From Cystobasidiopsis lactophilus (taxonomy: Eukaryota; Basidiomycota; Agaricostilbomycetes; Agaricostilbales; Chionosphaeraceae): a DNA stretch of 64,000 bases. A program made the translations under genes and the position numbers. Every line of letters begins with the position of its first letter. Position 1 is the first letter of the stretch. This document shows positions 22,702 through 55,392 of this stretch, one piece after another. The stretch is from positions 2,329,328 through 2,393,327 of the forward strand of contig BCIO01000004.1 of NCBI GenBank assembly GCA_001599975.1, in the 5' to 3' direction. The notes below the pieces were generated by a model. That model was not told where the DNA came from. It ran no database searches and was given only the letters and a program-made list of their open reading frames with translations.

Positions 22702-22968
22702 CTGCGGCGTCTTCAAAGGTCAAAACTAGAAGAGATGCTCGATGGACAATGTAGAACAGCTCAGAGGATTGTTAAGGATTTCGCTATTGCCTCGTGCGAC
22801 CTTTTTCGGCCCATGGTTCGGACGCACTGGTCCTGAACAGATATTGCTCTGACAGCTTATCTTTTATGAGCCGGAGAGAGAATTGATCGAAACAAACGCA
22901 ACCAAGAGTGCCAAAGGACTCAAGCGCAAAGTGATCGTCACAGGTCGACTTCGTCTGAATCGGCGACG

Positions 22969-25900
22969 ATGAGCTTCCGCTCAGCGCTGTCGAGCCGGCA
23001 CAGCTTGCAGGTTGATGGCGAACCCCCGACGGACTGGGCTTACGTGTGCGCGCTGCGGGTGGCCTACCTGAGCCACATCCTGCAGCCCAAGCCTTCCAAC
23101 AACAATGCTGCCCCTGCGCCCGCCGCCAAGAAGCCCGCCGCTGCTGGAGCCGGCGCCGCTGCGAACGAGGGCTGGACGACGGCGCTCTTCTCGATTGGGG
23201 ACATCTTTGGCAAGAGCGCAAAGTCGGGCGACATCCGCTTCCCAAAGGAGTTCGTCAAGCTGCTCGGCGCCCGCATCGAGGCCATCGCCAAGGGCCAGGA
23301 CAAGGTGGCGTCCTACAACGAGCCGGACTTCAGGGCTGTCATCGGCGTCTTCTACGGCACCTTCAACAATGCGACGTTCCAGAAGCAGATCCGCGAGAAC
23401 CGCAAGATTGAGGAGCTCATCCTCATGTTCGTCACCGCCGCCCAGGGCAAGCTCAAGAAGCTCTCCGTGGGCGACGAGTGGAAGGAGCGGCTCATGGACC
23501 ACGTCGGCATCTTTGTCGGCCTCATCCGCGACGTTTTGACCTCCAAGGACATCCCCTCGCGTCATGTTCCCAAGGAGCTGCTCGACCGCCTCAACTCGTA
23601 TCTGGCCAAGCTGGCGCCCACGCCGCCGACCTCAGCTGCGCTCACCACCAACAACGCCGAGGCCGGGCCGTCGTCGAGGACCATTGAGGCGGTACAAGAG
23701 ATGGAGCTCGTCAGGGAGGTCGCTGGCATCTTTGGCATCTCAGACCAGCAATTGGCCCAGGATCTGGCTCAGGTCAAGAGACTGGCTACCGAAAAGGTGT
23801 GTTGGAGCTGTCCTTCAGTGCCAAAGGCCGCCACTGAAGGACGGCGAGAGCGCACAGGCTGCCTTGAGGGATCTCAAGACGTGCATCAGCAACGTCAACT
23901 CGGGCGCCCGCTGGCCAGGTCGCAGGGAGGACTTCGACTCGGACGATGCGTATGCGTCTTGGCGCAAGACGGAGATGGACACCTTACAGCAGCTCATCCT
24001 TGCCCTCGCCGCCGCCAACCGCAACGCCCTCGGGCCTTCCGATTCGGGCCCGTCCACCCCTGAGCGCCCTCCCAACCCCACCCGCCCGACGTCCATTATC
24101 GTTTCCCCCTCGTCCACTTCTATTGGCAACAACTTCGGCGGGCAAGGAGGCCCCAAGAGCCCACTTTCACCGGGCTGGGTCCACATGCGCACCCCGTCGC
24201 TCTCCTCTCAGGCTCTCAACTCGAGCGGCAAGTTCGACTACTTTGCCGCCTCCGACTCCTCCTCCATGCTCAGCCCCAACGAGAGCGCCGAGGACAACCT
24301 TTCCATCCACTCTGACTTTACGTCCACGCCCGACACGCCCGCCGCCGGCTTTGACTTCACCTTCATCCCGCCCAACCCGAGGGCCGCGTACTCCAGCCTG
24401 CTCCAGACGTGCTTGGACCGGGACCTGGCCGGCTTGAAGGACCTCCCACCCGACCAGGAGGTGCCGCTCAAGATCTTGTCCAAGCAGCACCAGGTCGTCC
24501 TCACCGAGTGCGCCTTGCGGTGGCGCTTGTCGCCCATCACCCGGGCCATCCTGTTTGCCGAGAACATTGGCAAGAAGTACCATGATGACGACGTGCCGCT
24601 CATTGAGTGCGTCGACGAGTGCCTCTTGGATCTCGACTCGGTCGTCTCGCAGCAAGCTTCCATCGCGCAATCCACCTCGGACGCATGGGACGGCTTGATG
24701 CTCGCTGACCGCCACACCCTTTCCAGCATGCTCTCCCAAACCTTCGACACCATCGTGCGCCGCCTGTGCGGGGCCTTGGGCGACCCGATGGAGGCTTCCG
24801 TCGCCTCGGTCGCCTCCCTTCAGCGCACTTTACTTCTAGTGGCCAACCACCCAGTCTTCGTCGAGGACGTTGTCCAGAACGGCGACTTTGGAGCCCGGCT
24901 GGGCGAGTTTGGCGGGGCGGCCGAGTACTTGGCAAAACGGCAATATGAGAAGATGCGGCAGGATGTGCTCTACCGGGAGCAAGACGGGCAAGAATATGTC
25001 AGGGCGCTGCAGGAGATGCTGAACTGGTTTCGAAGCGTGGTCAAGACGGTCGACCGATTGTTTCCTGAACCAGTCCTTGGGTCAGTCGCTCGTCGCTTCC
25101 ATGATGAGACCAGTCTGATGTTGGTCCGGCGAAACTTTGACAGCTCGGTGGACCCTGCTGCTCGGTTCTTCGTCGTCTGCTCCCCGCTGATCGCAGAGGA
25201 TTGCCACGCGGCCGAAGCCATCATCCCAGCCTTGCTCGACAGCGCACCCGAGATCCCACCCGAGTTGGTGGCTGCTAGGGAGAACGACATTCGATCGCTA
25301 TACGAAGCCGCAAGGAGCCACGCCGACATGCACGCGTCCTTCTTACCAGAGTGAGCTCCACCTCTTTGCTGCTGTCAATGCCATACTGACGCTAGTCGGC
25401 CAGCGAGAGCTTTTCGCTCAACTTCAGGCTGTTCGAGCCGCTCATCATCAAATGGCTAGACGCCACCTCGCAGAAGACGCTGGGCTGGGTCGACGGCGCG
25501 ATATCTCACGACAAAGTGCGTCGGAGAGCTACTGTTCTCATCAGGAACTAATAGGTACTCGTTATGCACAGTTCGTGCCCGAGGGCGAAGATCGCCATTC
25601 GTCGTCCATTGTGGACTTAATTGAGAGCTGCAACTCGGCAGTCGGGCACCTCATTGGCCTGAAGTGGCCGGACGAGGTCGTCAATGCCGTCTTCCTGACC
25701 AAGCTATCCCAAGTAAGGCGCTCATCTGGAGGCCCGCGACTTCGCTCATGTCATTTCTGCACAGAGTGTGGCCAAAGCCATCGAGGAATACTGCCTCAAT
25801 CTAGAACGCATGTTCATGGATGAGATGTTCCCGGCTGTGCCCAATTCTAAGACTGGCGCTGTCGATCCGGAAGAGGACGAGCGGACGTCGGCCTGGCTGG

Positions 25901-31193: not shown

Positions 31194-34158
31194 ATGGATG
31201 TTGCCGAAGCCGACTTAAGGGGCCTCAACCTCGGTCTCAGACGAGATTCAGCGACGCCTTCAGGATTGGCAGCCAGTAAACCGCCCATTCAGCACGCCCT
31301 ATCAGATCCCCTCTTTGGACTCGGACCGTCCAGTGTTCTGCTGGGCAGCTTGGCCGGCCTCCAGCTCGCCGCTCATGCTGATGCTGCTGATGAATCCTTC
31401 TCCGGTTCGCTGCTGCTGTTGTCCTGCTTGCGCGGAATGGACGTCTGTTAACTTGTTGGTATATACAGATCTGCTGTCTGGTTCAGTCAAGACGCGAGAC
31501 CGGCCCAAGATCCAGAAGCGCCACAAGACATTTGGCGGCGTCACCTCCTCCCCGCCCATGGACGTCGGCGTCGACTTGCCAGATCTCACGTCCGTCTCCA
31601 GGAAGGCGTCCAACAAATCCACCAAGAGCGTGACCGCGGGCGGCTTCGTCGAGGGCGGCGGCGAGCCCTCGCAGCTCTCGCCCCGCCTGGGTTCCTTTGC
31701 CCGCCCCAGCCTGGGTCGGACCGGGTCCAATAAGAGCGACCGATCCAACTCAATGAAGCGGCTTGGCAGCCACAGCCGCTCCCTGTCCAGCCGCAGCAAC
31801 GGTCCTCTGGGCGCCTCAAACTCGCGAAGGAGCTCCAGGTCTTCCGTGTCCTTCTCCAAGCGCAAGGCCCTGGCGCTCGAGCCGGCAGAGCTCCTCGAGG
31901 TCCTGCAAGCCGAGTACACTGCGTCGCCCGCCCGGATCGACGAGAACGCCGCACTCGGCTCACCACCTTCGCCGGTCGCCTCCACCTCCAAGTTCAGATC
32001 GCCGCTCATCATCGACGTCCGGCCCTTGCCGCAGTACTTAGGTACAGATGGGCGCCTCAAGGGATCCATGTGCGTTTGCCCGGATCGCCAGCTTCGTCTT
32101 TGTCTTTGATGGAGGAAGCTCATCTTGCTCACCTGACACAGCAATTGCAATTTCCCCTCACTGCTCATGAAGCGCTTCCGGAAAGGCAAGGTCGCCAATT
32201 TTAGTCTCGAGGCCTTCATCACCACCGAGATCGGCAAAGCCACCTTCCAAAACGCCATAGCTGCGGCCGCCTTGGCGTCCTCGACCGGCTCGGCGGAAGC
32301 GCAGACGACCAAGACGCTGTCCGACATGGACGTATTTGTCATCGATGAAAGCATTGGCGAGCTGGACGGGAGCACGACGGGCTCGGTGTTGATCGCGGTG
32401 CTGGAGCAGGTCCTCGAGTCGGTGCGTTGACAACGTCGTCTCTATTCAAATGCCGGCGCAAGTCTGATGCAAGCGCTTCACTCGTACAGTACATTGGCTC
32501 TGGTTCGCTGTGCTACCTGAAAGGGTCGTTCCAGCACTTGCGAGCAAGGGGCGTGGCCAAAAATTGGATCGTCGAGGGCGAAGAGTCCGAGGCCGCGGCT
32601 TCGACGGAAGAGGGCAGTACGCTGGCTGGTATCCACGAAAGCCCCAAGAAAGGCCTCACCATCCAGCCGCCGCCCAACCCGTCCTTGGCCAAGGCGGCTC
32701 AGGTGGATGTGGAGCCACCGCCACCTGGAGCTGAAGGGGGCGGTCGAAAGAAGCCACAGCTCAGGCGAATCAACACCAACGAACGGCTCCGAGTGGGTTC
32801 GGGCAGCAGCGACTCGAGCCATTCCACCACCACGCCCCCGTCCGCTAAGCGATCGCGATCACCATCGCCTTTGGTCTTTGACAAATCCGCCACCGGGGCC
32901 TACTCTGACTCGCCGATCAAGTACGATGTCACGCCTACAGGAAAAGCAGCGTCCAACATGTCAATCCAAGAGCTGTGCCGCCTGCAAGCCTCTACTCCGA
33001 AGACTGCGTCTTTCAAGGTGAACGGCCCAACCAGCCCAGCCTTGGCTCGGTCCCTCTCTTCGCCCGTCACTCCGGGCACAGCTAGAGACGATGAGCCGGA
33101 GGAGTTCATCATCTCGAGCATTATCCCCAACTTTCTCTACCTCGGCCCAGAGCCCCTGTCAGACGCCAACGTGGAGGAGCTCAAGGCGGTGGGCATCCAG
33201 CAAGTGCTCAACATGGCTCTGGAGGTGAACGACACGTTTGGGCTGGAGAAGAAGATGGAGAAGTACATCAAGATCCCGATGCGCGATTTCGTCGAGGAGA
33301 AAGGGGTCCAAAAGCGCATCGACGAGGCATGCGCCATCCTAGGTTTGTGATCTTCATCTACCCCGCTGTCTTCAGCACTGAGTGGACGACGTCGCAACAG
33401 ATGACGCCGACCTGAAGTCCAAACCGGTCTACGTGCACTGCCGAGCTGGCAAGAGCAGAAGCGTTACCATCGTCCTGGCCTACCTCATCCATCGGTTCGT
33501 TGCGATTCTCCCTTTGTTACTCTTTGGAGCCTGTCTTTGACATGTGATCCCATGCACAGATACCATTGGTCGCTCAAGCGAGCCTATGCTCATGTTGCGG
33601 AGCGTCGCAAGGGCATCTCTCCGAGTGCGCCACTTCGATTGCTCTCCCCATACGAAGATCCGACTTGACGTTTGTTGACATACAGACATCGGGTTCATCT
33701 CCGAGTTGATGCGCTACGAAGAGCGGGCCAATGGCGTCAAGTCGAATGGCGTCCATGGCTTGGGCACTTCCATGCCGGCTTCGTCCGGCCTCCGAGCTGC
33801 ATCCTCTGGGGCCTCCATGCCTCGGATCGACACTGACGAAGTGGACGACCCGACTGCGCCGCCTGGACCGGCTTCAGCTCGCGTCGGGCCTGCTTGGCGG
33901 TATCGCGAGAGCCTGCCGCCAACCAAATTCAACGGCTTTGGTGACGATGAACCAGAGCAAGACAGGTTCGCTTGCCCCTCTGAAAGTTTTTCAGATCAAA
34001 GCTGAGTCGGCGGGCATCCAACAGCGGTCGATTGTACCCCATTCGGCCAGGCTACGACAATGATAACTTCCAGCCTAGCAGGAGGTCAGTCGTCCTCTGG
34101 ATCTGTGGTCGTTTGCTTAATGCGCCAATGTTCGCTTCGCAGAGCCAGCATGCGCTGA
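31194..34158 (+). CDS. Dual-specificity MAP kinase phosphatase with rhodanese-like domain
   Basis: Predicted MAPK phosphatase (Msg5/Cpp1-like). The N-terminal exon from 31194 (MDVAEADLRGLNLGLRRDSA) is followed by an intron whose 3' edge near 31320-31470 I could not fix. Then comes a Ser/Arg-rich linker and a rhodanese/CDC25-like non-catalytic domain (LLEVLQAEYT, SPLIIDVRPLPQYL, MDVFVIDES), as in metazoan MKPs. The catalytic domain has IIPNFLYLGPEPLSDANVEE, PMRDFVEEKG, DDADLKSKPVYVHCRAGKSR with the HCxxGxxR loop, and VTIVLAYLIHR joined to YHWSLKRAYAHVAERRKGIS. The C-terminal exons rebuild GRLYPIRPGYDNDNFQPS and end RRASMR-stop at 34156-34158. Likely dampens a cell-integrity or pheromone MAPK; the partner cannot be read. 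Confidence 0.82.
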
Positions 34159-39700: not shown

Positions 39701-40034
39701 CTCCGACAAGACCAACATGCCCTTCCTCACCCACCGCCTATACAGCGGCGACGCCGTGGCCGTGCGCATCAAGGTCCGCTACGGCAAGGACGCCTACGTG
39801 ATCGCGGCGCTTTCCTCCATCCGCTTCCCCGAGCTGGTGGAGAAGGTGGTCCGGAAGATCCGGCTGTGCGGCGACCAGGCGCAGATCGACGAGCACTCGG
39901 TCCGCCTCCGATACGAGGACGAGGAGGGCGACAAGATCCTCATCAGCTCGGACGAGGACATCACGCTCGCTCTGGAGGGCGCCCGCTTCAACCCGGCCTC
40001 TGGCGGTCCGACCTTGACGGTCTTTGTCGACTAG
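36774..40034 (+). CDS. CDC24: Cdc24, Rho/Cdc42 guanine-nucleotide exchange factor
   Basis: Polarity GEF that loads Cdc42 with GTP at bud or tip sites. Exons 36774-37304, 37380-37553, 37622-37795, 37867-37953, 38031-38120, 38185-38614 and 38635-40034 keep frame throughout and give 961 aa. Domains: CDC24 calponin-homology-like region (~60-180, SLYQKSILVRERLARVPGFQ, then SIVCHCLRLGTSLCFLFNAL); DH domain (~215-390, RVVKEILDTERTYVASLEII, LIKPVQRVCRYPLLLE); PH domain (~420-570, VFLFERIILCCKE-like block, HVYLFERIILCCKEIG); a ~300-aa Ser-rich disordered linker; C-terminal PB1 (~875-961, IRLCGDQAQIDEHSVRLRYE, then DEEGDKILISSDEDITLAL), which binds Bem1. Introns cluster in the DH part; the linker and PB1 are one exon. 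Confidence 0.95.
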
Positions 40035-40636
40035 AGCCCCTACACATCCACGAAACCTCTCCATCCCGCCCTGGCAAATACCCTACCACCTCGTTAACCA
40101 GAAACCTCAGCATGTACATCATCCAGCATCTCGGCCTTCTCCCTCTTTATGGCACAGAACCACACTCGTTTTATTCGTCACGTTTCCGGCCCGCCTTTAG
40201 CGTCCAAGAATATCCAGACTCGCACCTTCGACACCGTCCAGTGTTCAGCTTTCGCCCCTTCTCGGCTTCCATTTTTGGGTTGTGTGTTGCGGGATCTCTC
40301 TTTTCCAACTCTCTCTTACGAACGAAACCCATCAAACGGCTTATCATATCGACCTTTCGCTTCTTTCGCTTTCGTCTTCTCATTTTACGCCTCGGAGGCT
40401 CCTCCATTGTAACAATATCTTCTCTTCGTTTGCGCCTCCCAGCTTGTTTCTCATTAGACGAATTTGAAAGCTCAATGAATATATCTCCAATTCGAAGCTG
40501 TGGATGAGTGAAGATACTGGACAAATCTAATGGTTGATTGAGGCAAGGGAAGCATGCTAATTACAACGGCTCGGTGGCGAAGGCATGTCCGGCTACAAAG
40601 GAAGCCCTCTCGCCGCATACCAGATCCAGACAGCAT
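40035..40636. other. Convergent 3' intergenic region
   Basis: 602 bp between convergent CDC24 and orphan A stops. T/C-rich tracts, no gene seen. Confidence 0.5.
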
Positions 40637-42672
40637 TCAAAGACGAAGCTCTCGACGAATCGAGTGCCGAGTGAAAGCCAGACGTGGCCACTCCAGGAAA
40701 TCGCGATATGGCCGCTCGCACATTTCGGCGTCGCCCTTGAGGTGAAACCAGCAGTCATTGCCTTTGACCTCAATGAGCACATCCATGTAATGTATGTTGC
40801 CAAGTTGGACGGTGTGAAGCACGAAGGGGATGTGCTTTTGGTCCCAGCAGAGGGCCGCGTTTTCGCAGGCCGATATTTTATCCCGGAAAAGCGTTGTGTC
40901 AGTAAGGTCATCGTGCACAATAAAGCTGAACTGGGAGTTCCGGCCTTCAAAGACTTTGTTGTGACGGAAGCGAAAAGCATGATTGGTACCGTTGGTTGTT
41001 AGAAGTTGGCCATCGACCAAGGGCAGGTGGATTCGGTCTAGGGCAGTCGACTTGACGACTTGAAGAGGCGCATTCGGTTCCGGTTTCTTGAAGAAGTAGC
41101 TCAAAGGGGCGCAAGCGGGGAGAAGAACGGTGCGCTCTCGCTCGTTGCTTTGAGACAGCAAGACCTTGAGCACTTTGAAATGGATCACAAGTCCACCTTT
41201 AAGCTCGTCGATGCGAACGTAGAGCGTTTCCTGCACATGAAAGCTCAGCATATGAAATTTGTTCCAACTGACAGAGGTCTAAGTCTGGAACTCACAGCTG
41301 CAGCAGAAACCTTGGCCATCCCATTCTTTTCGCCTAAGTGCTGGACGAAGTGGCTTATTGCCCGGCGGTTGTTGGGGTCACCGAACACATCGACATCGGC
41401 CGCGACTACTGGGTGGAAACAGCCTTCACCAGATGGCTTTGTAGTAGATGGGCGATGCGTCGCCCAGCACGAAACACCATCAAGCTGGAACAAAATAGGA
41501 CGCTTGACCACTTGCTTCCAATTTTCCGTACCCGACTCGGCCCCGAGCTGTTGCCACGACGCACGGCGCTGTAGTGTCTCTCGGACTGACAGGCACCGCA
41601 CAGTGGTGAAGCGGCACAAAGAGGCCAGAGAAAGAGGTACAGCGCGAATCGTGGGGCCGATTTTGTCACAGTCAAAGACCACAGATGCTGAAGCTCCAAC
41701 AAGCAGCCAAATCCGTGCAGTATTTTGTCTTGTAGGTAAATCCATTTCCGCAGGCCATGATCGATATCCCGATAATCGGAGAGCTTCGTCTTTGATGAAC
41801 ATAAAGGGCTGCGTGAACACATTGGCTAAATGTTCGATGCAGTCGTCGTTGAAGACAAGGTGCAAGGACGTCCGAGCAGATTCAAATCGAGCGGCGAACG
41901 CGTCCATATCGTTGATATCAACGTTTGTGGCCAAAGAGGGGATGACGACCAGACAACAGACGGAAAACTCCCGAGAGCATTCGATTTCGATGACCGCCAA
42001 CGACTGGGAACCAGAGACGGGCGCATCAGACTGCCCTTCAGCGACTGAAGGCTTGTGCAAGGTGAGAGTCTTCTGTAAGAAGGGCAAGAAAAGGCGTTTC
42101 GCTGCCTCCAGAAAATTTGTGGTTGGCGTGGCGTGAAATTGTCGGTCCTTGGTTTCCAAGGCTCCCGGGAACGGCTGGGGAAGACCAGCGAGCTTTACAC
42201 CAAAAGCTTGGCACATGAGGTGATTACGGCTAGCCGCACGTATGCTGAACTGTGAAAGACGGCGTTCCGGAGGAAACGCACGACGAGCTGCGATTTGTAC
42301 AACCACCTCCCTCTTGTCTGCCACGAATGTCAAGCCACGGTCTTCAAGACGCCAAAAAACATCTTTTTGCTCTTCTAAGAACAGCAGGATGCCCAAGATG
42401 CAGTAAAGGTCTTGGTCGGAGGAAGCACCTTCCCGGCACTGGAGGCTGAAACTCTCGGCCGTGGCGTCGGAGCGAAGCCGTATCGTGATGAGATAAACTG
42501 GGTTGGAGGAGGGACCTGACTGTGCTTCATACTTGATCTGGGGGTATTGCATTGACTCCTTTGGGCCTGACGGTGGAACCTTTGTCGGCTGGCGCGGATT
42601 GCGTCCTTTGGGCTTCAAGGCCATCCGTCGAAATTCGTCGAGAGATGTCGGCAGAGGTGGATTCTTGTGCAT
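40637..42672 (-). CDS. Orphan family protein A (656 aa), paralogue of the gene at 48105
   Basis: Family not recognised. Two exons: 41296-42672 and 40637-41230, phase-0 intron of 65 bp, 656 aa. It shares its whole architecture with orphan B. Shared blocks: N-terminal DLYCILGILLFLEEQKDVFW; FAARFESARTSLHLVFNDDC; LSGYRSWPAEMD; ISHFVQHLGEKNGMA just before the intron; and in exon 2 KISACENAALCWDQKHIPFV, DCWFHLKGDAEMCE and RPYRDFLEWPRLAFT. It lacks about 60 residues present in B before the ISHFVQHL block. No signal peptide, membrane segment or zinc motif is visible; predicted soluble. The strongly conserved Trp, Cys and Arg positions suggest a folded, perhaps enzymatic or binding, C-terminal domain. 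Confidence 0.75.
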
Positions 42673-42799
42673 GCTGGAGACGTTTGAGGTTCAGGGTGAG
42701 AGGCAGTTGGAATAGAGGGCGCTGGTGGGCCAGGACAAAAGAGGCTGGAGAGGACCTAGCCGCCAATGCCCTCTCGAGTTTTCGTTTCAAGAAGGGTCA

Positions 42800-43135
42800 C
42801 CGATAAGGGGAATGGCCAGACTGAGTCCTAGCAAAAAGCCTGACGTCTCAAGAGTCGTTCAACCCGAACGCATTCTCGTCGCGAGGTTGCAAGGCCCTGG
42901 ATTGCTGGGGCAGCAGCCGGCCAATTGAAACGGGTATTCAGGCTCTGTAAGGCAATCCAGAGGCGTTCAAGGGCACAAAGGCAGAGGCCAAGCTGGTCAA
43001 TGCAGAGCAACTTGCTCTGGTGACCCACGCGTCGATTTCGCACCCCACCGGCCCTCGTAGTCAGAGTTCTGGTCAGCGACTCTCAGTTCGACCATCTCAA
43101 GGCTCTCGCGCGCGTGCTCAAGAACTGAGCAGGTA
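42800..43135 (+). CDS. Possible small gene, unknown
   Basis: A short segment reads like coding sequence: ESFNPNAFSSR, then after a probable intron (~42886-42951) EAFKGTKAEAKLVNAEQLAL and VTHASISHPTGP. It could continue unspliced to a TAA at 43133-43135 (...RARAQELSR), or be spliced at ~43056-43086 to FDHLKALARVLKN-stop at 43126-43128, although that join does not keep phase. I could not find a convincing start exon; one candidate ATG lies near 42764. The 5' end overlaps the region just upstream of orphan A. Treat as tentative. Confidence 0.25.
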
Positions 43136-43879
43136 AGGCCTCTTTGGACAAGGCGTTTTGCCACCGAAGGATTGGCACAGGTGGCAAAAAAAGGACCGCC
43201 ATGCGAAAAGCCCCAAAAGTTTCTTGCATGAAAGAGTAAAAAACGACCAAAGAAAGAAGTAGGAAGATGGAAAAGAACAACAATGATTTAGGTAGAGCGA
43301 ACCCCAAAGAGCGTCCAAGAGGAGAAGAGAACGAAGCGACCAATTTCCCATCAGCACGATTCTTCTCGCCCCAATCCACCAATTTTGCTACCCTGGTGAA
43401 TCCACCACCAAGCATCGTCCATGAAAGTCCTTGCCCTGCGCTTAAAGAGGTTGGGTCTTGCTAGAGAAAAGAAGTCGTTCTAAGGAAATTGGAGTTTTTG
43501 TCGAAGTTGGAAGTTTGCGAGGGGGAGACGTCTAAGGACCAGGGGGCGTTTTAAGAGATGCGACAGGGAGCAAAGAGCTGGAGGTGTCGGACGAGCTGGT
43601 GGAGGAAGAAGCTGGGCACGGTTTGGTGGGCCAAAGAGATGATGAAAAATGCTGAGAGGGTGGTTGGTCGTTTCGGTCCTTTTGAACCCTTGAACTCTTG
43701 AGGTTTAGTTCCCAAGAAAAGAATTGTTGCGGTTTCCATTTATTTGCCCTGAGGGGCTCTGCGAAGACGTGAAGGCAAACTGAGCATGTGGAACGCAGTT
43801 GAAGCCCAGACCGGTCACTCACTCCCTAAAAAGTAGCGAAAGCGAAGCGGCGATGGTCAGTGCTAGAACTGTTAGAAGG
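43136..43879. other. Intergenic, eIF5A 3' region
   Basis: Purine-rich on plus strand (43190-43350, 43460-43560). No supported gene; a 96-codon minus-strand ORF has no family features. Confidence 0.4.
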
Positions 43880-44824
43880 TCAAGAACAGACGAACTTCTG
43901 GGCAAGGGCCATCTGTGGGAGGCAACAGCATGGTAAGCGACTTGGAGGCAAATAGCTTGAGGCGAAAACTCCTCACCTCGATGCCCATGGCGGTGACGAC
44001 GGTGATGACAAGCTGAAGACAAAAGCATCGGCATTAACACTTAGAACTAGGAGCGGTGAGAGCGAGGGCACCCACCTCCTTGCCATCGTCGAAGCCGGCG
44101 CGGATCTCGTCGCCGAGCTCGCCCTCGGGAACCTTGACGTCGTTCTTCTCGCCGCCCTCAGTGGTCATCAAGTTCACTGTGGATACCAGCTTTGATTTGA
44201 GCCAACCGTTTCGAAGGGGGCTTTGAAAGTTGCAGGCAAGAACGTACAGAAGTCCTCGTCGATGTTGACCAAGGTGTATTCGTTGCGGACCACGTTGGGG
44301 ACATCCATGTTGTGGGTGGAAGGGGAGATCTGTGCAAAACGATGGCAGTCAGCGAAAAAGGCCTGACAATCGCTAAAGGGGGTCAAAGGGTCATGCGCAC
44401 ATCTTCGAGCTTCTTGTTGGTGAAGATGTCAATGGCGATCAAGTGGACCTTGGCGTGTCCGTGCTTGCCAGTCTTGGAAGTGGACATGTCGACGATCTGC
44501 GCGTACCAATGACAGGGCTGTCAGCGGGGGAGAAACGCGGACGAAGGCCAAGGGCCGAGAACGCACCTTGCAGGGACGACCCTTGATGACGACGTGTCCG
44601 CCCTTGCGCAGAGCAGAGCACTGCATGGGGAAGGTCATCGAGGCGCCGGCATTGGCAGACTCGCTGTGGGCGCGGCAGTCAATTTTGCGCAACCCAAAAA
44701 ATTTAATAGGCTGCTGGGCACACTCACAAGGTCTGTTCGTGTTGCCTGTGGATCGGACGCCAAGGTCAGTATACGCAGCCAATACAGTCAGACAAGCGGA
44801 CGCCACCCACTCATCGTCAGCCAT
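43880..44824 (-). CDS. EIF5A: Translation factor eIF5A (hypusine-containing)
   Basis: Cytosolic elongation/termination factor needed for polyproline translation. The hypusination loop is exact: [20 protein letters not shown], the modified Lys lying between TG and HGH. Upstream [20 protein letters not shown] and [12 protein letters not shown]; downstream [52 protein letters not shown]. The 5' end is built from tiny exons: 44811-44824 (14 nt, MADDE) and 44728-44745 (18 nt, QHEQTF), then ESANAG. Further introns fall after PCK, LED, EDF, GKE and GIE. The tail [10 protein letters not shown] after the last intron differs from the usual ending, so the final join is less sure. Eight exons for ~160 aa is intron-dense. 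Confidence 0.93.
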
Positions 44825-45156
44825 TGTGGGCAAGAAGGAGGGCGGGCCGAGGAAAAAAGGGTTGCTGCTCGAAAAGAACAAAAAATTGGGCCTGAAGAGC
44901 TGCTTTTCGCGCGCCGCCGGTCAGCTCAGCGGGTGCGTCTGAGCTCAAGGACTACGCACAAAGCGGTTTCAAGTGCTTTCTCAAGGGGCGGTGTGGAGGA
45001 CGGGGCCAAGAAGCCGTCTCGCTGGACTCGCCGAGCGAGTTGCGGTCTCTAATGGCACGTGGTAATTCCCAGCCCGCAGGTCGCCAGGTCAAGTGTGCAG
45101 ATCGAGTAAAGTGTACAATTTGGGGCATCAAGTCGTTCTCTAAAGCGAAGTGGGTT

Positions 45157-46082
45157 CTAGGGGAGAGTGGCGTCCTCCATGAATCTCCCCAATGCGCATG
45201 AGCAATGGTCCCCCAAAGCGCTTGATGAAAGCCAGCGCGGCCAGCCAAGGCGAGCAAGCAAGTTTGAACTATCGTCCGTCTGCCAACCATCAAAGAGCCT
45301 CAACACCCTGGAGCATAGACCGGAAACAAGGAAGGCCGACTGACACTTTTGCAGCTCCCACTCCTTGTTGTCCAAAGGGCAAACCTGGCGCGTCTTCAAC
45401 CAGCGCGAGATGCAGTGGAAATGAAAGGCATGCTGTGAGATGTCACGACCTCAAGGATCAGACCTTGCTGACTGATAGCAGGGGGGACGGTGGCGAAACT
45501 CACGTTGCAGATGCCCCAGGCCACCGTGCACTCTTCGTTAGTCGCTGAAGCTTGGTTGGCTTGGCAGTCAATGCCTGTGCGGAAGGATGGCGATATGAGC
45601 ACAGGCGACACAAGTGCTAGAAGGGCAGTGGCAAAGCAACGCACACAGCTCCATGATGTGATTTCTGCCAACATTCGCCTTTCAACTACAGTTACAGCTG
45701 TAGCAACAGGATCACACTGACTTGCAGATGGCACTGTGTTGTCCCAAGCGGTCTGAGCTCAGTCTAGGAAGAGCAAGAGGCCTGTCCGAGCGCACCAGTT
45801 GTCCACGACAATGTCCCACGCCCAGAGCGACACGGCGTGCCCTGTAAGTCGGCAATTCGCCTCAAGACACTACGGCCTGATGTAGAAGAGCAGCTTACAC
45901 TGGGACCGGCAAGGTTTGAGCCCAGGTTCAAGCGCGCTCTGACAGGGAGTTGGACAGGCAGCCCACCTTTTTGACCTCGAATCGCTTCTGCTCGCCGCTT
46001 GGCTTGTCTCTATATCGACGCAGCTAAGATCAGCAACAGTAGCGGCTAATGCAACGCGAAGAGGGGAACCATACATGTCCAT
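45157..46082 (-). CDS. RBX1: RBX1/Hrt1, RING-H2 subunit of cullin-RING ubiquitin ligases
   Basis: Recruits E2 to SCF and related ligases. The protein is spread over very small exons: 46075-46082 (8 nt), 45967-46009, ~45790-45841, 45722-45733 (12 nt), 45645-45664 (20 nt), 45504-45574, then from 45432 downward. Spliced reading: [94 protein letters not shown], i.e. all zinc ligands of the RING-H2. The join between the second and third exons needs a GC donor or another small shift. The usual last residues (YGH) are not evident; the frame runs to a stop at 45157, so the C-terminus is uncertain. Divergent from IMP2 with 59 bp between starts. Confidence 0.85.
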
Positions 46083-46141
46083 CCTGCGCGAGGTGCTCGA
46101 CGTCTAGTTCCAAGAGCTCCTTGGAGTCGAGCAAGCGAGCG

Positions 46142-46945
46142 ATGTTCCGGCGTTGGCAGCGTCTGGTCCCCGCCTTCCTCCGAGACTTCAATTACAAGCT
46201 GCTCTACTGGGTGCCCGTGGCTTGGTTCGCGGAGGAGCACATCTGCTTCGTCTGCGGCATCACTGGAAGGTGAGCTCTTTCGACTTTCTCAATTTTAACT
46301 GGCGCTTTCGTCCCTGAGTCTTCTTTGGCCTGCTAGATCCATGCAGGTGTGTCTAATGAAGCTACGCTAGACTTTCTGTCCAGAGTCTCAAGGCAGGAAC
46401 GGGGCCCACAGCCTTCGCTCAACCCAGACTCGTCCCAGCTCCGACAAGACGTCGTGCTGCTGAACAAGATGGTGACTTTCGACCCGGCCGGCTCTCTGAA
46501 GCGAGGGGACGTCGTCGTCTTTCGCCACCCTAGGGAGCCCGGCGAAATCGCGGTCAAGCGCATCTTGGCCTTGGAGGGCGACACCGTCCAGACCCTCAGA
46601 GTCTACCCGGACAAATACGTCAAGGTGCCCAAGGGACACGCTTGGGTCGAAGGCGACGAGTCGTACCATTCTAGGGACTCGAATTACTACGGGCCGGTGG
46701 GTTTTGCACTCCTTCCTTTGCCGGGGCGATACTGGATGCCGACTGGCCTACAGATCTCGCTGGGCCTAGTCACTGGGAAAGCTGTGCACATCGTATGGCC
46801 GTATTGGTGTGTGTCTTTCTGTCCTGAGGCATTGCTGGGCGACGAGATCTGATCGTTGTGGTAACCCTGCAGGCGCTTCGGACCGGTCCCGCACAATTTG
46901 AACCCTAGCTGGCGCAAGCGAGTCAAGCTGGCTGAAAAGTCGTGA
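46142..46945 (+). CDS. IMP2: Mitochondrial inner membrane protease subunit 2 (Imp2-like)
   Basis: Type-I signal-peptidase-like serine protease facing the intermembrane space. Exons 46142-46269, 46337-46346, 46412-46696, 46754-46806 and 46873-46945 give 182 aa, all in phase. Catalytic Ser lies in GRSMQPSLNP; its codon is inside a 10-nt micro-exon (A-TCC-ATG-CAG). The Lys of the dyad is in IAVKRILALEGDTVQ. Also VFRHPREPGE, VPKGHAWVEGDESYHSRDSN (box D/E), YYGPISLGLVTGKAVHIVWP. The N-terminal segment LLYWVPVAWFAEEHICF is the single membrane anchor. IMP2 is preferred over IMP1 because of the extended DxNPSW-type tail (HNLNPSWRKR) and box spacing, but IMP1 is not excluded. Confidence 0.85.
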
Positions 46946-48104
46946 ATCAAAACTCCACGTCGACAGAGGTCGCCTTCGTGACTTTGTTGGGTTGCCACCG
47001 AGGAGGCTTTGCCACCCGCTTGCTGTTCGAGGTGGGTTGCTGCTTGCCTGGTCCTCCAGATCGACCATAGTCTTAGCTTTGTCTAGCAGTAAGCCAGCAT
47101 TGTGCTTCATGCGTCAGTGTCCTCGGGCAGGGACTGCGAGTGATATTGACGCGGCGCGGTGCTCGTCTCCCTGCGGCCAGCTTGCAAAATGCGCGCTCAT
47201 CGTCGGGCTCCAAGGTAAGCCATTGTTTCTCTCTTTGAGGGTAAGGCTCAATCCCTCAGGCTACGGAAAGGATGAAGGGCGACGTCGGCGGAGCATTAGG
47301 GCTCAAGCGCAAGAACTTCCCGAAGGCCCATTGTTTGGACGCAGCCTTATCCCGAGCATCTTTGGTCAGCGACAAAAACTCGATGGGCCGAGCTGGGGTG
47401 GGGGCCATTGGGTGACAAAGGGAGCCCAGACTGGGCTGCAAGTCGCCTTGGGCAGCAGGCCCTTTTGATGGCCATTTGAGCTTTCATGCAAGCTACTATA
47501 TACTTAGTCACTTCCTTGACTTCCTTGGGTTGTTGGGATGGAGTACCATTGTCCTCGAACATCTCTCTGAGAGACGCCTTCGATTCTAACAGGGCGCGTT
47601 GACTGCAGCCAACCATGTCATTTTCGTCAGACCTCATCTCCAAGCTGTCATGCTGAACACAAGCTCGTCTACCTGCTCGAGTGAGTGCCCAGAACAGTAG
47701 CCCATTCTGCAGCGGCGAGTCTCGTTATTTGAAGGCCGGGCGAGGGCAATGACTGCATCACTGCCTCTCGTACGAGAAGATTCCTCTCTTCGTGTCCTGC
47801 CCAAGGAGGCGGAGTGTTGTGGTATACAATGACTCGAATTGCCTCTGGTTTTTGAACTGAAAGCGTTCGGAGACGTGCTTGCGAGCAAAGGCGTCTTGCC
47901 CGACCGTGTTGGTCTATGTTGCCAGAATGACTTTGTTCCAATCTAATCCCTTTGTCGTGTCTTCGCGGACAGAATATGGACGAGGAACGCCTTCCGTGAC
48001 CGGGCTCTGATGGGCCCTTGCCCTCTCTGTCTCGTCCGACCGGTACTTTCACTCGTGCGGCTCTCGGTTAGTCGGTCATCGACGAGTAACTGGCCTAGTC
48101 TCCG
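46946..48104. other. Intergenic, no convincing gene
   Basis: 1.16 kb. On the minus strand a 98-codon ORF (47347-47643; contains LRQMFED-like LREMFEDNGTPSQQ) and a 61-codon ORF (47256-47441; PIEFLSLTKDARDKAASKQ) look mildly coding but have no plausible start, splice linkage or family. The plus strand has a 158-codon ORF at 46992-47468 with no family features. Includes orphan B's promoter. Confidence 0.3.
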
Positions 48105-50330
48105 ATGGGATCTCCTACTGATGATCAAAATGCGCCCCGGAAACCCACTGGACCCGAATTGGCAGCTGCATTTCGCCAACAGCTGCACCAAGACGCCTTG
48201 GCTCCACATTTCAAGAAACGCCAGAAAGCCCCCACTGGGGGTTCATCATCAATGCCGCTTCCCAGAGTTTGCCTTCAACACGAACCGGGCACTGCTCACG
48301 GCGCCACTTACAGCATCAAGATTCAAGTCAGGGGCGGTTCAACTCAAGAATCCTTTCCGCTCCATTTGGAAGGCGCCGTCGATTACAAGGACCTGTATAT
48401 CATTGCTGGTATTCTGGTTTTTGCAGAGACCCAGGACTTCATGAGATGGCGCGTCATTTCAACCACCCCTCTGATACTCGACCTAGGCAGCAAGCAATTG
48501 GTTCTGCAAATTGCGATGCGCAGCAACTTTGTCCACTCAAAACTTGCCGGCCCTATCTCATTCGGCTCCGGGACCAGTAGCTCGAACCTTGTGCAGCGTT
48601 TGGACTTTGCCGTGAACTTAGCTAGCTGGCCACAACCTTTCCCTACTGCGCAGAAGGAGGGGTTGAAGGATTTTGGCGAACAGCTGGACAAGGACTTCCA
48701 CCGCTTGGCGGCGACTTGGTTCTCGCCGTTCTTGCAAGACCGGGTCACTGTTCACAAACTTTCGGCGCCCTCACGAGAGCCTGAGACAGGGAATGGCGCC
48801 AATCAGGCCGCGCTAAACCTGGTTTCAGAACACCACCGCCTCCGGTTCCTGGCGATTGTTGATGTGGCGTGCTCCCCGGGAGTGTCCATCTCCTGTTTGA
48901 TCCCTGTCCCTTTGCAGCCCATCGAACCGCATGTCAACGACCTGCGCGCCTTCGCGGCTCGTTTTGAAGCAGCTAAGAGCTTATGCCACACGACATCAAG
49001 GTGTATGAAGCAGTTTGCAGCGTTTTTCCTACCTCTGCGCTTCGACCGAATCGCTCCCGAGGCCCTTAAGCGGATTGGATACAGGTCATGGCCTGACGGA
49101 ATGACTACTGCCCTAGCAAACGCGACCAAAGGGCTATGGTTCTGCTATGGGGGCCGAACGGATACGTTGTTCACCGCAACCCCATACACGGCCGACATTA
49201 CGACGCTCTCCGCTCTCACTCTGAACAGTTTGGCGTATTTCCCTACGCTAGCTTCAGAGCGTCGAAGGTCCGTCCGAGAGCTTCTGGACGACCCCAGTTC
49301 CTGGCAAGAGTTGCACCCAGTTGAACCAAATGACACCCGATGCGGGAATTGCCACTGGACGCCCATCGCTGACCGCCCGGGATATTTTCAAATCGATCAC
49401 CTGTGGTCTCTGGCTTCTGAACATTCGCGCCTGGAGTATCTAGAGACGCACAGATTGCTCAAAGATGTGCCGAGGCCACAACGAAGCGCCGAGGAGGAAT
49501 GGCCGCTTCGGACGCAAGTGTCGCCAATTGCTTGGGCGCAGTTTCATCCGATCGTTTTCGTTTCGGAGAGTGCAGGCTCTCTAACACCCCAAGATCGACT
49601 GGCAATTGGCCACTTTGTGGAGCATCTTTGTGAGAAGAACAAGATGGCCAATTTATGGAACTATGCTCTGCCTAAAACTGCAGAAGCCGTGAGTTTTGTG
49701 CTAATCAAAGTGATGCATGTATAACGTGCTCTGTAGTCGCAACCACATTCCATTCGTGTTGGAAGAGCTGCCGGTACTGGCCTCTGGGTCAAATTCAGCC
49801 TGTTTTATCAGCTTCATGCCGGGCAGGAACCTATATCTCTTCCCGCGACGTTCCCTTTGGGGTCCTTCACAAAGCAAGCAGGTGTTGGGTCGCCTCTCTC
49901 TGTCGTCAAGCCGCATGTTCAAGATTTGGTCCATGAACCTCTCCTCACTGGCCGAGTGCTGGCCTCCGCAAGTCCACATGCTTCGTTCGTCTTCAGCCAC
50001 TCCAAATTACACTCTACGAAAGTAGTCTCTTTCAATTTCGTTGTTCATTACAACGAGCTCGGCAATACGACCGAGTTCAGGAACCAAGTTTCAGCTTGCG
50101 AGAACGCAGCTCTCTGCTGGGACGAGGACCATATCCCATTCTTGTTGCACACTGCTCGATTAGAAGGAGGAGCAACAGTGGAGAATGTTCTGATGGAGGT
50201 TAGAGGCACGGATTGCTGGTTCCACCTGAAAGGTCAGACGGACATGATGAGGAGACCTTACCGCGACTTCCTAGAGTGGCCGCGCTTGGCATTCACTTGG
50301 TTCGCGATCCGTCACGAACTTGGAATTTGA
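48105..50330 (+). CDS. Orphan family protein B (725 aa), paralogue of the gene at 40637
   Basis: Family not recognised. Exons 48105-49688 and 49737-50330 with a 48-bp phase-0 intron; exon 2 is 594 bp, exactly the length of orphan A exon 2. The N-terminus is polar and disordered (residues 1-60). Shared blocks with A: DLYIIAGILVFAETQDFMRW, LRAFAARFEAAKSLCHTTS, RIGYRSWPDGMT, IGHFVEHLCEKNKMA, QVSACENAALCWDEDHIPFL, GTDCWFHLKGQTDMM, RRPYRDFLEWPRLAFTWFAI. B carries an additional segment (~residues 420-490: LWSLASEHSRLEYLETHRLL and on). No transmembrane helix or targeting signal is seen. Transcribed away from A, with eIF5A, RBX1 and IMP2 between them. Both copies have intact frames and similar codon use to neighbours. 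Confidence 0.75.
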
Positions 50331-51095
50331 TCGCCTTCACCGATAGCATGCAGAGGGCGCTCTTTGTAGCCAGGCGCTTCCTCACGAATCTTTTCCCTGT
50401 ACCTAGAACTCTTTTCACGTCTCGCTCCCTGTAATCAAGCCCACCTTAGAGTTGTTCAGCGAATTGGTCTTTGACAAGGCACTTGAGCTCGGCATCAAAA
50501 GTTTTTGGGATTTGCCACCCGCGCGCTCAGCCTGCCTGACAGGTCGACGACAGCCAGCCTTGTCAAGAAGCAGACGCCACTCCCATCTCAATGCCAAGTC
50601 TCAAGCACGAGTCGCTAGGAGGACTTTCTCAGAGTGACGGGCCGAAAGGTGGCTGCTGCGCTCTCTGATCTCCGACTTCTCAACCATGAGCACGTCCGCC
50701 ACCCTCTCAACGTCTCAAGCACGCAAAAAAGCGAGGAGGCGGCACACCATGTAGAGCCAAGAAGTTTGGGGATGAGGAAGGAACGAGCGCCCTCGCCCGC
50801 TTCCGAAGAAGGGACTCAAGCGCAGTTCAAGTGTGAATTCCAGAGAAGCGCATCGCAGGGTAGGTCGTCAAAGAGCCGGGATGTCGTCCGGTTTGTCCCT
50901 CCTAACAACTGCCCCCCGAAATGCCGCTCGCCATAAAACGCTTGAAATCCAAACCCGAGCCTTTGCCCCTTCCCCCCAATTTTCCCGTCCGAGTCGCCGT
51001 AGGAGAGCCCAGAGGGTTGTTTAGAGGTGTTCCACAAACAGAAGAAAGCTGGTGTCAAGATGATGGGAGATGCAAAAAAGGGCCGAAAGGGAAGA
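50331..51095. other. Convergent intergenic region orphan B / RPL39
   Basis: 765 bp; short ORFs on both strands, none recognisable. Holds 3' ends of both convergent genes. Confidence 0.4.
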
Positions 51096-51541
51096 TCAGA
51101 GGTTGAGCTTCGTTCGGCGCCAGTGCCGGCGCTTGGCTGTGGGGCCTCTCGTCAGCAGATATCCTTGCCTGGATGGATTAGCTTAGCCAGAACGCACTAT
51201 TATAGCCCAATTTGCCCTCCTGTATCGTGGCCGGTCAGCGTGAACGTCAATGCGGAATTGGAGCAAAGCACAACGTACGCCCTTGAGTCTGAACCATGCC
51301 GGGATAGGCTTGTTGACGCGGGCCTTCTTTGCCTGTTCGCTAGCTTGTAAGCGACATGCTCCAAGGGCAGAGGGAGAAAGACAACGAACGAGGATCCGCT
51401 TGATTCGGAAGGCTTTTGCATCAAAGTCAGCTTGGTCCACTCGCTCGCGGGCAATTGCGGCTACTGACTCTTGTTCGACGGCTGCAAACAGGTGCATTAG
51501 TCTCTGTTACACAGTCTGGGCAAGCAAGGCAGGCTCACCAT
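51096..51541 (-). CDS. RPL39: Large ribosomal subunit protein eL39
   Basis: Very small basic protein of the 60S exit tunnel. Exon 1 is only the ATG (51539-51541), exon 2 is 13 nt (51469-51481, PSNK), exon 3 starts at 51412 (TFRIKRIL), exon 4 ends at 51279 (EQAKKARVNKPIPAWFRLKG), exon 5 is 51198-51219 (EGKLGYN), exon 6 51096-51136 (KRRHWRRTKLNL-stop). MPSNK, PIPAWFRLK and KRRHWRRTKL are family hallmarks. The exon 3/4 edges are uncertain: total phase works if exon 3 runs to 51386 and exon 4 begins at 51343 (~56 aa; the family norm is 51). The segment EGKLGYNT replaces the usual GNTIRYNA with equal length, so it is divergent there. Divergent from the first MYND gene. Confidence 0.75.
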
Positions 51542-51900: not shown

Positions 51901-53521
51901 ATGGCGGCCCCGGCACCCAAGCCAGGCTCGAGCCGCAAGCCACAGAAGGACACGTCGCGCCTTCGACCCTTGTTGGCCTATCAAAAGTGAGTTCTACTCT
52001 GCCCGGTGAGCACCAGGCGACTAGAGCACGGGCCCGTCAGACAAGCCTGCTTCCGATGTGCCACTACAACCAAAGGTCTCTCTCGGTGCTCGCGATGCCA
52101 TCGTGTGCTGTACTGCTCGGTCGCTTGCCAAGAGGAGGATTACAGCTCGCACAGAGAGTACTGCCGACTGTCCAACGTCGTCCAAGAGGTCCGCCGCCTG
52201 GTGCAGGGTTCCGGCGCGGTCGACGAGCAGTCCGCCGTGTTCAACTTCATGCGCAGCCAGGGCCGCGAGCTCAACTCAGCTTCCGTATCGCTCGTTAGCT
52301 GGGAACCTCGATGTCTCTCCTGTTTGAGACTGCTGCCGTCGGAAGAGACAGCGGTCGGTTGCCAAGGTTGCCTTAGACTGGCATACTGCTCGCTCGCATG
52401 CCAGAAAAGCGACCTGTACAAGCACTCCCAAAAGCTGCACTTTGGCAAAACTACAGTGAGTACGTTGTCGTTGACCTCAGAGAGTGTTGTAAAGTTCGAC
52501 AGTGCCAGCACCTGGCAGCCTCGCAAAACGTCGACCTATTCCTCAGTCACTTCCTGTACTACGATCAAGATCGGGATCCGGAGCAAAAGACGATCAACTG
52601 GTTTCAGCAGACTGTGGACAAGACGATCCAACCTCTTGCCTCATCTTGGCTGGAATACCTGCAGCGCGTCCGGTGCCCCCTTCTTGTTCGGCCCGTCTTG
52701 CTTGATGCTTTCACCTCGTTATCCCATGGCATGGTACTCACCATCATGGAAGGGCTGCAAAGGCTGGTCGGATTGGAGCAGTTTAAAGAGTCGGCGCCAA
52801 ACCCGGCCCGGAAGCTGGAAGTGCACTTGATTGGCAGTAGAGAGATGGAGTGGACCCACGGCTCAATGGCGTTCGAGCTCCTCATGCACATGCTCCCCTC
52901 GGTGGACACGCTCACGGTCCGCTTCATTGGTCCGGAATTCATCTTGCCCAATGACCCTCTGATGGAAATGGAGACTTGCCCGGACTGCCTTTCGCGTGGC
53001 AGTGAGTGCGCTCATACATTTCGAACCCTTCGAACCCTGAATAAAGGCTGCCCTCTAGGAAGGCGACTGTACGGCATGCACCGCGAGACATACCAAGACT
53101 ACGTGCTCGCCAACCCGGGTTCACGGCCGACGCTGGCCGTTGGCTTCAACACGGGCTTCTTCGAGAACAGGGCAGAGTGGACGCCTGGTATTCGAGCCGT
53201 GCAAGAGCTGCACTGCCCTTTCATCCTCACCTCGTACAACAAAGAGGAGGCCGACGGCGACGCCGAGGCCTTTGAAGAGCTCGGGTTCGAGCTGGCTTGG
53301 AAATGCCTGCCTAACACTTGGACATCAAGTGAGCCTCGTCCGCCGGCCCATCGAAGGCAAGATCTGATCAAGTCGAGGCTCGAGCAGCGTACTTTCACTT
53401 GGACTACTGCAGCGAATCGAGGCTCTGGGCTGACAATGTATGGTACAACGTCTCTTCTTCCATCAGACTCTGACGCTTGGATGTTCTTCAGAGCTTCTGG
53501 CTTGGCGGGACGGGCAAATGA
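51901..53521 (+). CDS. Double MYND-finger, MSS51-like protein, copy 1
   Basis: Starts MAAPAPKPGSSRKPQKDTSR; intron 1 rejoins LLAYQK to QACFRC. First MYND finger: CFRCATTTKGLSRCSRCHR, then YCSVACQEEDYSSHREYC. A second MYND-like finger lies ~80 residues later: CLSCLRLLPSEETAVGCQGC, YCSLACQKSDLYKHSQKLHF. The C-terminal half resembles the MSS51/ZMYND17 C-terminal domain (LEVHLIGSREMEW, LMHMLPSVDTLTVRFIGPE, ETCPDCLSRG, RETYQDYVLANPGSRPTLAV, FILTSYNKEEADGDAEAF). The last exons rebuild YFHLDYCSESRLWADN and SFWLGGTGK-stop at 53519-53521. Mss51 proteins regulate mitochondrial COX1 translation in yeast, but no presequence is visible here and function is not assured. Tandem copy follows 234 bp downstream. 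Confidence 0.75.
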
Positions 53522-53755
53522 GTGGGCTTCAACGCGAGCCTTCCGACAAGCTGTCCCCGGCAGTCTGTAAACTTGTAATTAAGGCTCAATTTGAGAAACT
53601 GTCAATGAGGACTTGCCACCAACCAGCAGTGTGGCCACGAACAGGTGGACCGGAAGAGATCCGACCGCAGCTTCGTCTTGCCCGGCGACCAACCCAGCCT
53701 TCTTCTTCTGTCTTCAGTGTCCATTAGTACCTCCTCATCTGTTAGGCACCCAGAA

Positions 53756-55392
53756 TGGAGTTCTTCTTGGGCCAATCGCCGGAAGACGCCAAGGTCCTGG
53801 CCAAGTCTCGCTTTCGTCCTTTGTTGGCCTACCAGAGGTGAGAATGGCCAGATAGTCAAGACGATACAAGATGCAGAATACTTGTTATACAGACAAGCTT
53901 GCTTCCATTGCGGCACGACGTCCAAGCCTCTGAAAGCGTGTTCGCGGTGCCACAAGCGAGTCAAATACTGCTCGAATGACTGCCAGAGGGAAGACTACAG
54001 CTCGCACAAAGAGTTCTGCCGAGCCTACGCCGCTCTTAAAGAGGACTACATGGACGAGCTGAGGGGCAATGAAGTCTTTCCGGAGGTCGAGGCCATGCGC
54101 CATCTCCTGGCCGCCGAGATCCCCATCGTTGGGTCCAACTCGATCTTCCTGCTTGGTTTGGAGCCTCGTTGTCTCGCTTGCTTGAAGGCGCTGCCGGACG
54201 AGCTGGCCGCCGTGGCCTGCGATTGCCTCAAGCTGGCGTATTGCTCGACCGCCTGCCAGCAAACGGACTTGCCCAAGCACACCGAGGTGGTGCACTTTGG
54301 AAAGACTGCGGTGAACATATTCCGATACACCGAACATTCCCATTTTGACGTTGAAGCCCATGATTCGCAGTGCCAGCACCTCAAAGCCCAGCTCGCCACC
54401 GACAAGTTTCTCAATTTCTACTACCACGACCCGGACCGCGACAAGCACGACGCCAAGCAAATGACGATCGACTGGGTGCAAGAGACGGTCGACGAGACGG
54501 TCCAACCCCTGCCCACCAGTTGGATCGAATACTTTGAGCGCGTCCAATGCCCGGCGGTCGCGCGCCCGGCGATCCTGGACAGCTTTACGACGACATCGCA
54601 CGGCATGGTGCTCACCATCTTGGAAGGTCTCCACAGACTGGGCGGCTTGCAGCGCTTTGAAAAGTCGGCACCGGACGCCGTCAAGCAGCTCGAGGTCCAC
54701 CTGGTTGGCTGCGAAGGGATGGAGTTTGCCCACGGCGGACGAGTATTCGAGGTGCTCATGCACATGCTGCCTTCTGTCGCCACCCTTACTATCCGCTTCA
54801 TTGGTCCGAACCTTCCGATTCCCTCCACTGCCAAACTGCCAATGGACACCTGCCCCAACTGCACCTCCAAGCGTCGTATGGTGACGCTCCAACCGGTGTT
54901 GATTTTTCTGAGCGTTTGAATTGATTGCAGGCAAGCTTATCGCCTGCTTCTACGGCATCCATCGAATGACCTACGAAGACTTCCTGAAGGCGGAGCCCAA
55001 CTCCAAGCCGACTATCGCCGTGGCCTTCAACTGTGGCGTGCACGAGAGCAGCAATTGGAACCCGGGCCTCTTGGCGCTGAAGGAGCTCAAGTGCCCGTTC
55101 GTTTTCACGTCATTCAACGCGGTAGAGGCAGAGGGCGACGCAAAGGTGCTCGAGCTGCTCGGATTCGACTTGACTTGGCGAGCTGAACCCAACACTTGGA
55201 CGTCAAGTAGGTCTTCTTGCTCTTCGCTCCTTTGCCAGCATAAGCTGAACTCGATGGCTAGCCCACTTCCATCTCGACTACTTCTCAAACCCTCGCGTGT
55301 TCGCCATCAATGTCGGTCTTTCATGAAGCAGCAGTATGTCTAAAGCTAATAGCGACACACAGAGCTACTGGCTGGGCGGTATTGGCAAGTGA
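53756..55392 (+). CDS. Double MYND-finger, MSS51-like protein, copy 2
   Basis: Paralogue of the gene before it with the same intron positions. MEFFLGQSPEDAKVLAKSRF, RPLLAYQR then QACFHCGTTSKPLKACSRCH, YCSNDCQREDYSSHKEFC; second finger CLACLKALPDELAAVACDC, YCSTACQQTDLPKHTEVVHF. C-terminal domain: LEVHLVGCEGMEFAHGG, LMHMLPSVATLTIRFIGPNL, MDTCPNCTS, a last-third intron (~54876-54930), MTYEDFLKAEPNSKPTIAVA, FVFTSFNAVEAEGDAKV. Terminal exons give HFHLDYFSNPRVFAIN and SYWLGGIGK-stop at 55390-55392. The linker between the fingers differs from copy 1 (acidic, MDELRGNEVFPEVEAMRHLL). Copy 2 has only the six ligands CxxC..CxC visible in the second finger's front half, slightly reduced relative to copy 1. 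Confidence 0.75.

Follow-up and report, generated by a model that had tools for sequence, protein, structure and literature searches.

A divergent pair of two-exon paralogues around conserved genes in a fungus, from a family unrecognised in the collections searched

Two genes that lie on either side of a small group of housekeeping genes raise the question of whether they are copies of one family, whether that family is a known one, and what history and selection would account for the pair. The window, i.e., the whole stretch of 64,000 nucleotides analysed here, is C4:2329328-2393327 of a 22.1-Mb genome in 8 contigs. The gene order is copy A (-), eIF5A (-), RBX1 (-), an S26-type peptidase (+) and copy B (+). 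The genes between the copies had been named as eIF5A, RBX1 and IMP2; the first is identified by Pfam and the second by PDB sequences, whereas the third is recognised only as a signal-peptidase S26 gene (Pfam), a level at which IMP1 and IMP2 are undistinguished. The two copies comprise the following features, in window coordinates:

42672-41296, minus strand: copy A exon 1, encoding 459 aa; supported by its open frame and by splice sites; tblastn against copy B, E 1.8e-45
41295-41231, minus strand: copy A intron, 65 bp, phase 0, GTGAGT..GTGCAG
41230-40637, minus strand: copy A exon 2, 594 bp, 197 aa and stop; tblastn against copy B, E 4.2e-52
40637-40873, minus strand: slow-evolving C-terminal block of copy A, counterpart of the copy B block
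48105-49688, plus strand: copy B exon 1, 528 aa; tblastn against copy A, E 7.2e-46
49689-49736, plus strand: copy B intron, 48 bp, phase 0, GTGAGT..CTGTAG
49737-50330, plus strand: copy B exon 2, 594 bp, 197 aa and stop; tblastn against copy A, E 5.1e-52
50091-50330, plus strand: C-terminal block of copy B that evolves slowly, beginning with SACENAALCWD and ending at the stop

Both genes are intact, with two exons each, and encode proteins of 656 aa (copy A) and 725 aa (copy B). The models of the original prediction, with a phase-0 intron and a 594-bp second exon ending in a stop codon, are reproduced at these coordinates. Alternative splice choices likewise leave the frame open; the GTGAGT donors picked here agree with the consensus donor, and both map to one site of the protein alignment, so that the phase-0 intron occupies the homologous position in A and B. 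The equal length of exon 2, which had been singled out, is true as a measurement but is a coincidence and not a constraint, because the alignment of the two exons requires four gap columns in each row. Antisense to exon 1 of copy A lies an open frame of 364 aa (window 41042-42136, +), which probably does no more than mirror the coding strand.

Judged from their sequences, copies A and B are true homologues. Of 644 aligned residues, 249 are identical (39% protein identity), and the local alignment score is 911, with none of 200 shuffles exceeding 64, which bears out the claim of two strongly diverged copies of one family. The motif blocks named earlier are present in both proteins, and the longest identical runs extend over 15 and 11 residues; when columns were shuffled 20000 times, a longest run of at least 15 arose in a fraction of 5e-5, and a second run of at least 11 in none (0/20000). 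In addition, the best 80-column window holds 54 identities, a value matched in 0/3000 shuffles. The residue types most conserved over the whole protein are Phe (0.77) and Trp (0.70), with Arg at 0.39 and Cys at 0.41, which corrects the Cys/Trp/Arg emphasis originally placed on the exon 2 block. An internal repeat relating exon 1 to exon 2 is not supported by profile comparison (hhalign probability 0.3 on a scale of 0-100).

Fourfold-degenerate sites are identical between the copies at 36/114 positions overall, at 23/72 in exon 1, 13/42 in exon 2 and 6/23 in the C-terminal block, where the identity expected by chance, computed from third-position composition, is ~0.26. By the NG86 method, dN is 0.64 and dS 3.1 overall, and dN is 0.26 and dS 2.98 over the last 78 aligned codons, which make up the C-terminal block with a protein identity of 68%; both dS values are saturated, and the dN/dS of the pair is indicative only. 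Synonymous sites near saturation, together with a conserved protein, indicate that the duplication is old and that both copies are constrained by purifying selection, most strongly in the last ~80 residues. The conservation of the C-terminal block itself is likewise put down to purifying selection on the strength of these sites, which give no hint of a recent gene conversion.

The C-terminal block might be a zinc-binding module, since it carries, in both copies, the arrangement C-x5-C-x4-H-x5-H-x21-C-x2-H (copy B spacing). All six Cys and His residues are identical between A and B, and copy B matches a Pfam ZNF451 finger below threshold, with E-values between 0.05 and 0.21. However, in a block with 68% identity, six retained Cys/His residues are in our judgement not clearly beyond expectation, and this Pfam match (PF23108, a C2H2 zinc finger) reaches 13.8 bits against a cut-off of 29 and has no counterpart in copy A. 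We regard a zinc module as unlikely.

The second exon had been proposed to form a folded domain under selection. Selection at the protein level stands, whereas the fold is no more than plausible and is suggested by the conserved aromatic residues: in AF2 models built from the two-row alignment, exon 2 has a mean pLDDT of 39.1 and exon 1 one of 32.5, with no confident fold in either. For the low-confidence exon 2 model, Foldseek returns 0 matches at E≤0.001 (best E 0.16).

The claim that the family is unknown holds within the collections searched. Neither copy has a Pfam match above cut-off (the Transglutaminase-like core PF13471 scores 14.4 bits, below its cut-off of 26) or an NCBIfam match at E≤10; the best PHROGs match has an E-value of 0.43, and the best among PDB sequences, a search in which copy A was represented only inside profiles, one of 0.22. 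Pattern-seeded scans of viral contigs and of prokaryote genomes found no relatives of A and B, and a literature search on the motif strings of the family found none of them. The status of the family as unrecognised thus applies to Pfam, NCBIfam, PHROGs, PDB sequences and the viral and prokaryote sets; the last two being viral and prokaryotic, their silence tells little on fungal distribution.

Rather than being new, the family may belong to a known superfamily beyond the reach of profiles, e.g., one with an alpha/beta clamp-like or beta-grasp-like fold. A b-b-a-b-b-b order is discernible by eye at the N-terminus of exon 1 and again in exon 2, and the secondary structure of the AF2 models, although of low confidence, is compatible with it. 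The absence of Pfam matches above cut-off and of Foldseek matches at E≤0.001 with the poor exon 2 model weighs against this explanation, which we consider a real possibility, if a somewhat doubtful one. Its most specific form, the 9-1-1 sliding clamp, is not supported. The likeness of A and B to Rad9, Rad1 and Hus1 (PF04139, PF02144, PF04005) consists only of a b-a-b-b-b pattern judged by eye, whereas the two copies lack a profile match: canonical Rad9, Rad1 and Hus1 are found at other loci in the genome, and their models miss the A/B locus at E≤10.

In pairwise scores against open frames from the three clamp loci, 2 of 46 comparisons exceed z 2.5, each of them involving copy B (z 4.0 and 4.8), in a set whose six Hus1 pieces are antisense and whose Rad1 piece lies in a frame other than that of the Rad1 match. 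With sense-strand frames of the Hus1 locus, one of 32 comparisons exceeds z 2.5 (z 3.2, 3/200 shuffles), again in a frame other than that of the Hus1 match, where the long frame itself scores at chance against the two copies (z -1.7 and -0.3). The highest value of all, z 5.7, belongs to the antisense piece already raised in the first set, and to copy B alone. Every raised value thus involves copy B only, and none comes from the frame of a clamp match; because many frames were tried, we read these values as noise, which is not proof of absence.

Within its own genome the family is confined to the two loci. Four protein searches at E≤10 of the 22.1 Mb (8 contigs) return A and B only, with no third locus, and the pattern PYRDFLEW likewise matches exactly these two. 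Two strongly diverged copies of an unknown family could in principle be domesticated remnants of a mobile element or selfish gene. However, the genome holds just the two loci, the intron is kept at the homologous site, and the pair is internal to a 3.12-Mb contig and set among conserved genes; a repeat scan of 39900-51200 finds no inverted repeats that frame copy A or B, the longest inverted match near the copies (77 nt, 74%) being the homologous exon 2 coding block itself. Terminal repeats together with several copies, as expected of a mobile element, are thus not found, and we consider such an origin very improbable.

A two-exon fungal gene was duplicated locally long ago, and two intact but divergent copies of it persist under purifying selection. 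The explanation that we favour, tentatively, is that these paralogues belong to a lineage-restricted fungal family with a common C-terminal docking domain. Lineage-restricted protein families are common in fungi. Under this explanation, the products of A and B may be soluble proteins of mixed alpha/beta structure. Solubility is not certain, because a hydropathic stretch reaches a Kyte-Doolittle peak mean of 1.96 near residue 248 of copy B (1.56 near residue 226 of copy A). The conserved C-terminal block would provide a surface on which a single shared partner, or the product of the other copy, docks, whereas the faster-evolving exon 1 would have specialised, and the two proteins might belong to one complex, either as alternative subunits or as a pair. 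The docking mechanism is suggested by the pattern of constraint alone, i.e., a conserved C-terminus and diverged N-terminal parts, and any function can be assigned to the two proteins only by weak inference. Upstream of A and B there is no excess of common promoter words: the two regions have 29 9-mers in common, compared with a mean of 29.8 for control segments, which is inflated by segments overlapping the query region (maximum 850); co-regulation of the copies is therefore not supported.

Like orphan fungal families, the pair has no recognisable domain, consists of diverged paralogues and is under selection on the protein; it differs from them by its place among conserved genes in the interior of a contig. 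A bolder version, in which A and B represent a new fungal fold or superfamily, with a novel aromatic-rich C-terminal domain, and act as two paralogous subunits that are both needed in a complex essential to the lineage, strikes us as quite improbable. If conserved across a fungal class, A and B would be part of the core genome, as a protein pair lacking an assigned domain, and a good target for structure determination and knock-out; if merely a local orphan family, they would be one among many.

Some observations concern the wider surroundings of the locus. In the whole assembly, neither 5.8S rRNA (E≤0.001) nor an aromatic ammonia-lyase (E≤1e-5) gives a match. Within the window, five long open frames have no Pfam match at E≤0.01 (6539-8796, -; 22870-25354, +; 31302-32441, -). 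Two further features point to a fungus as the source: an MSS51 C-terminal domain, and a gene of Cdc24 type in which calponin, RhoGEF, PH and PB1 are matched (RhoGEF and PH below cut-off). At 51991-54919 (+), two zf-MYND frames flank, and partly overlap, the frame of the MSS51_C domain, and these frames may represent tandem MSS51-like genes.
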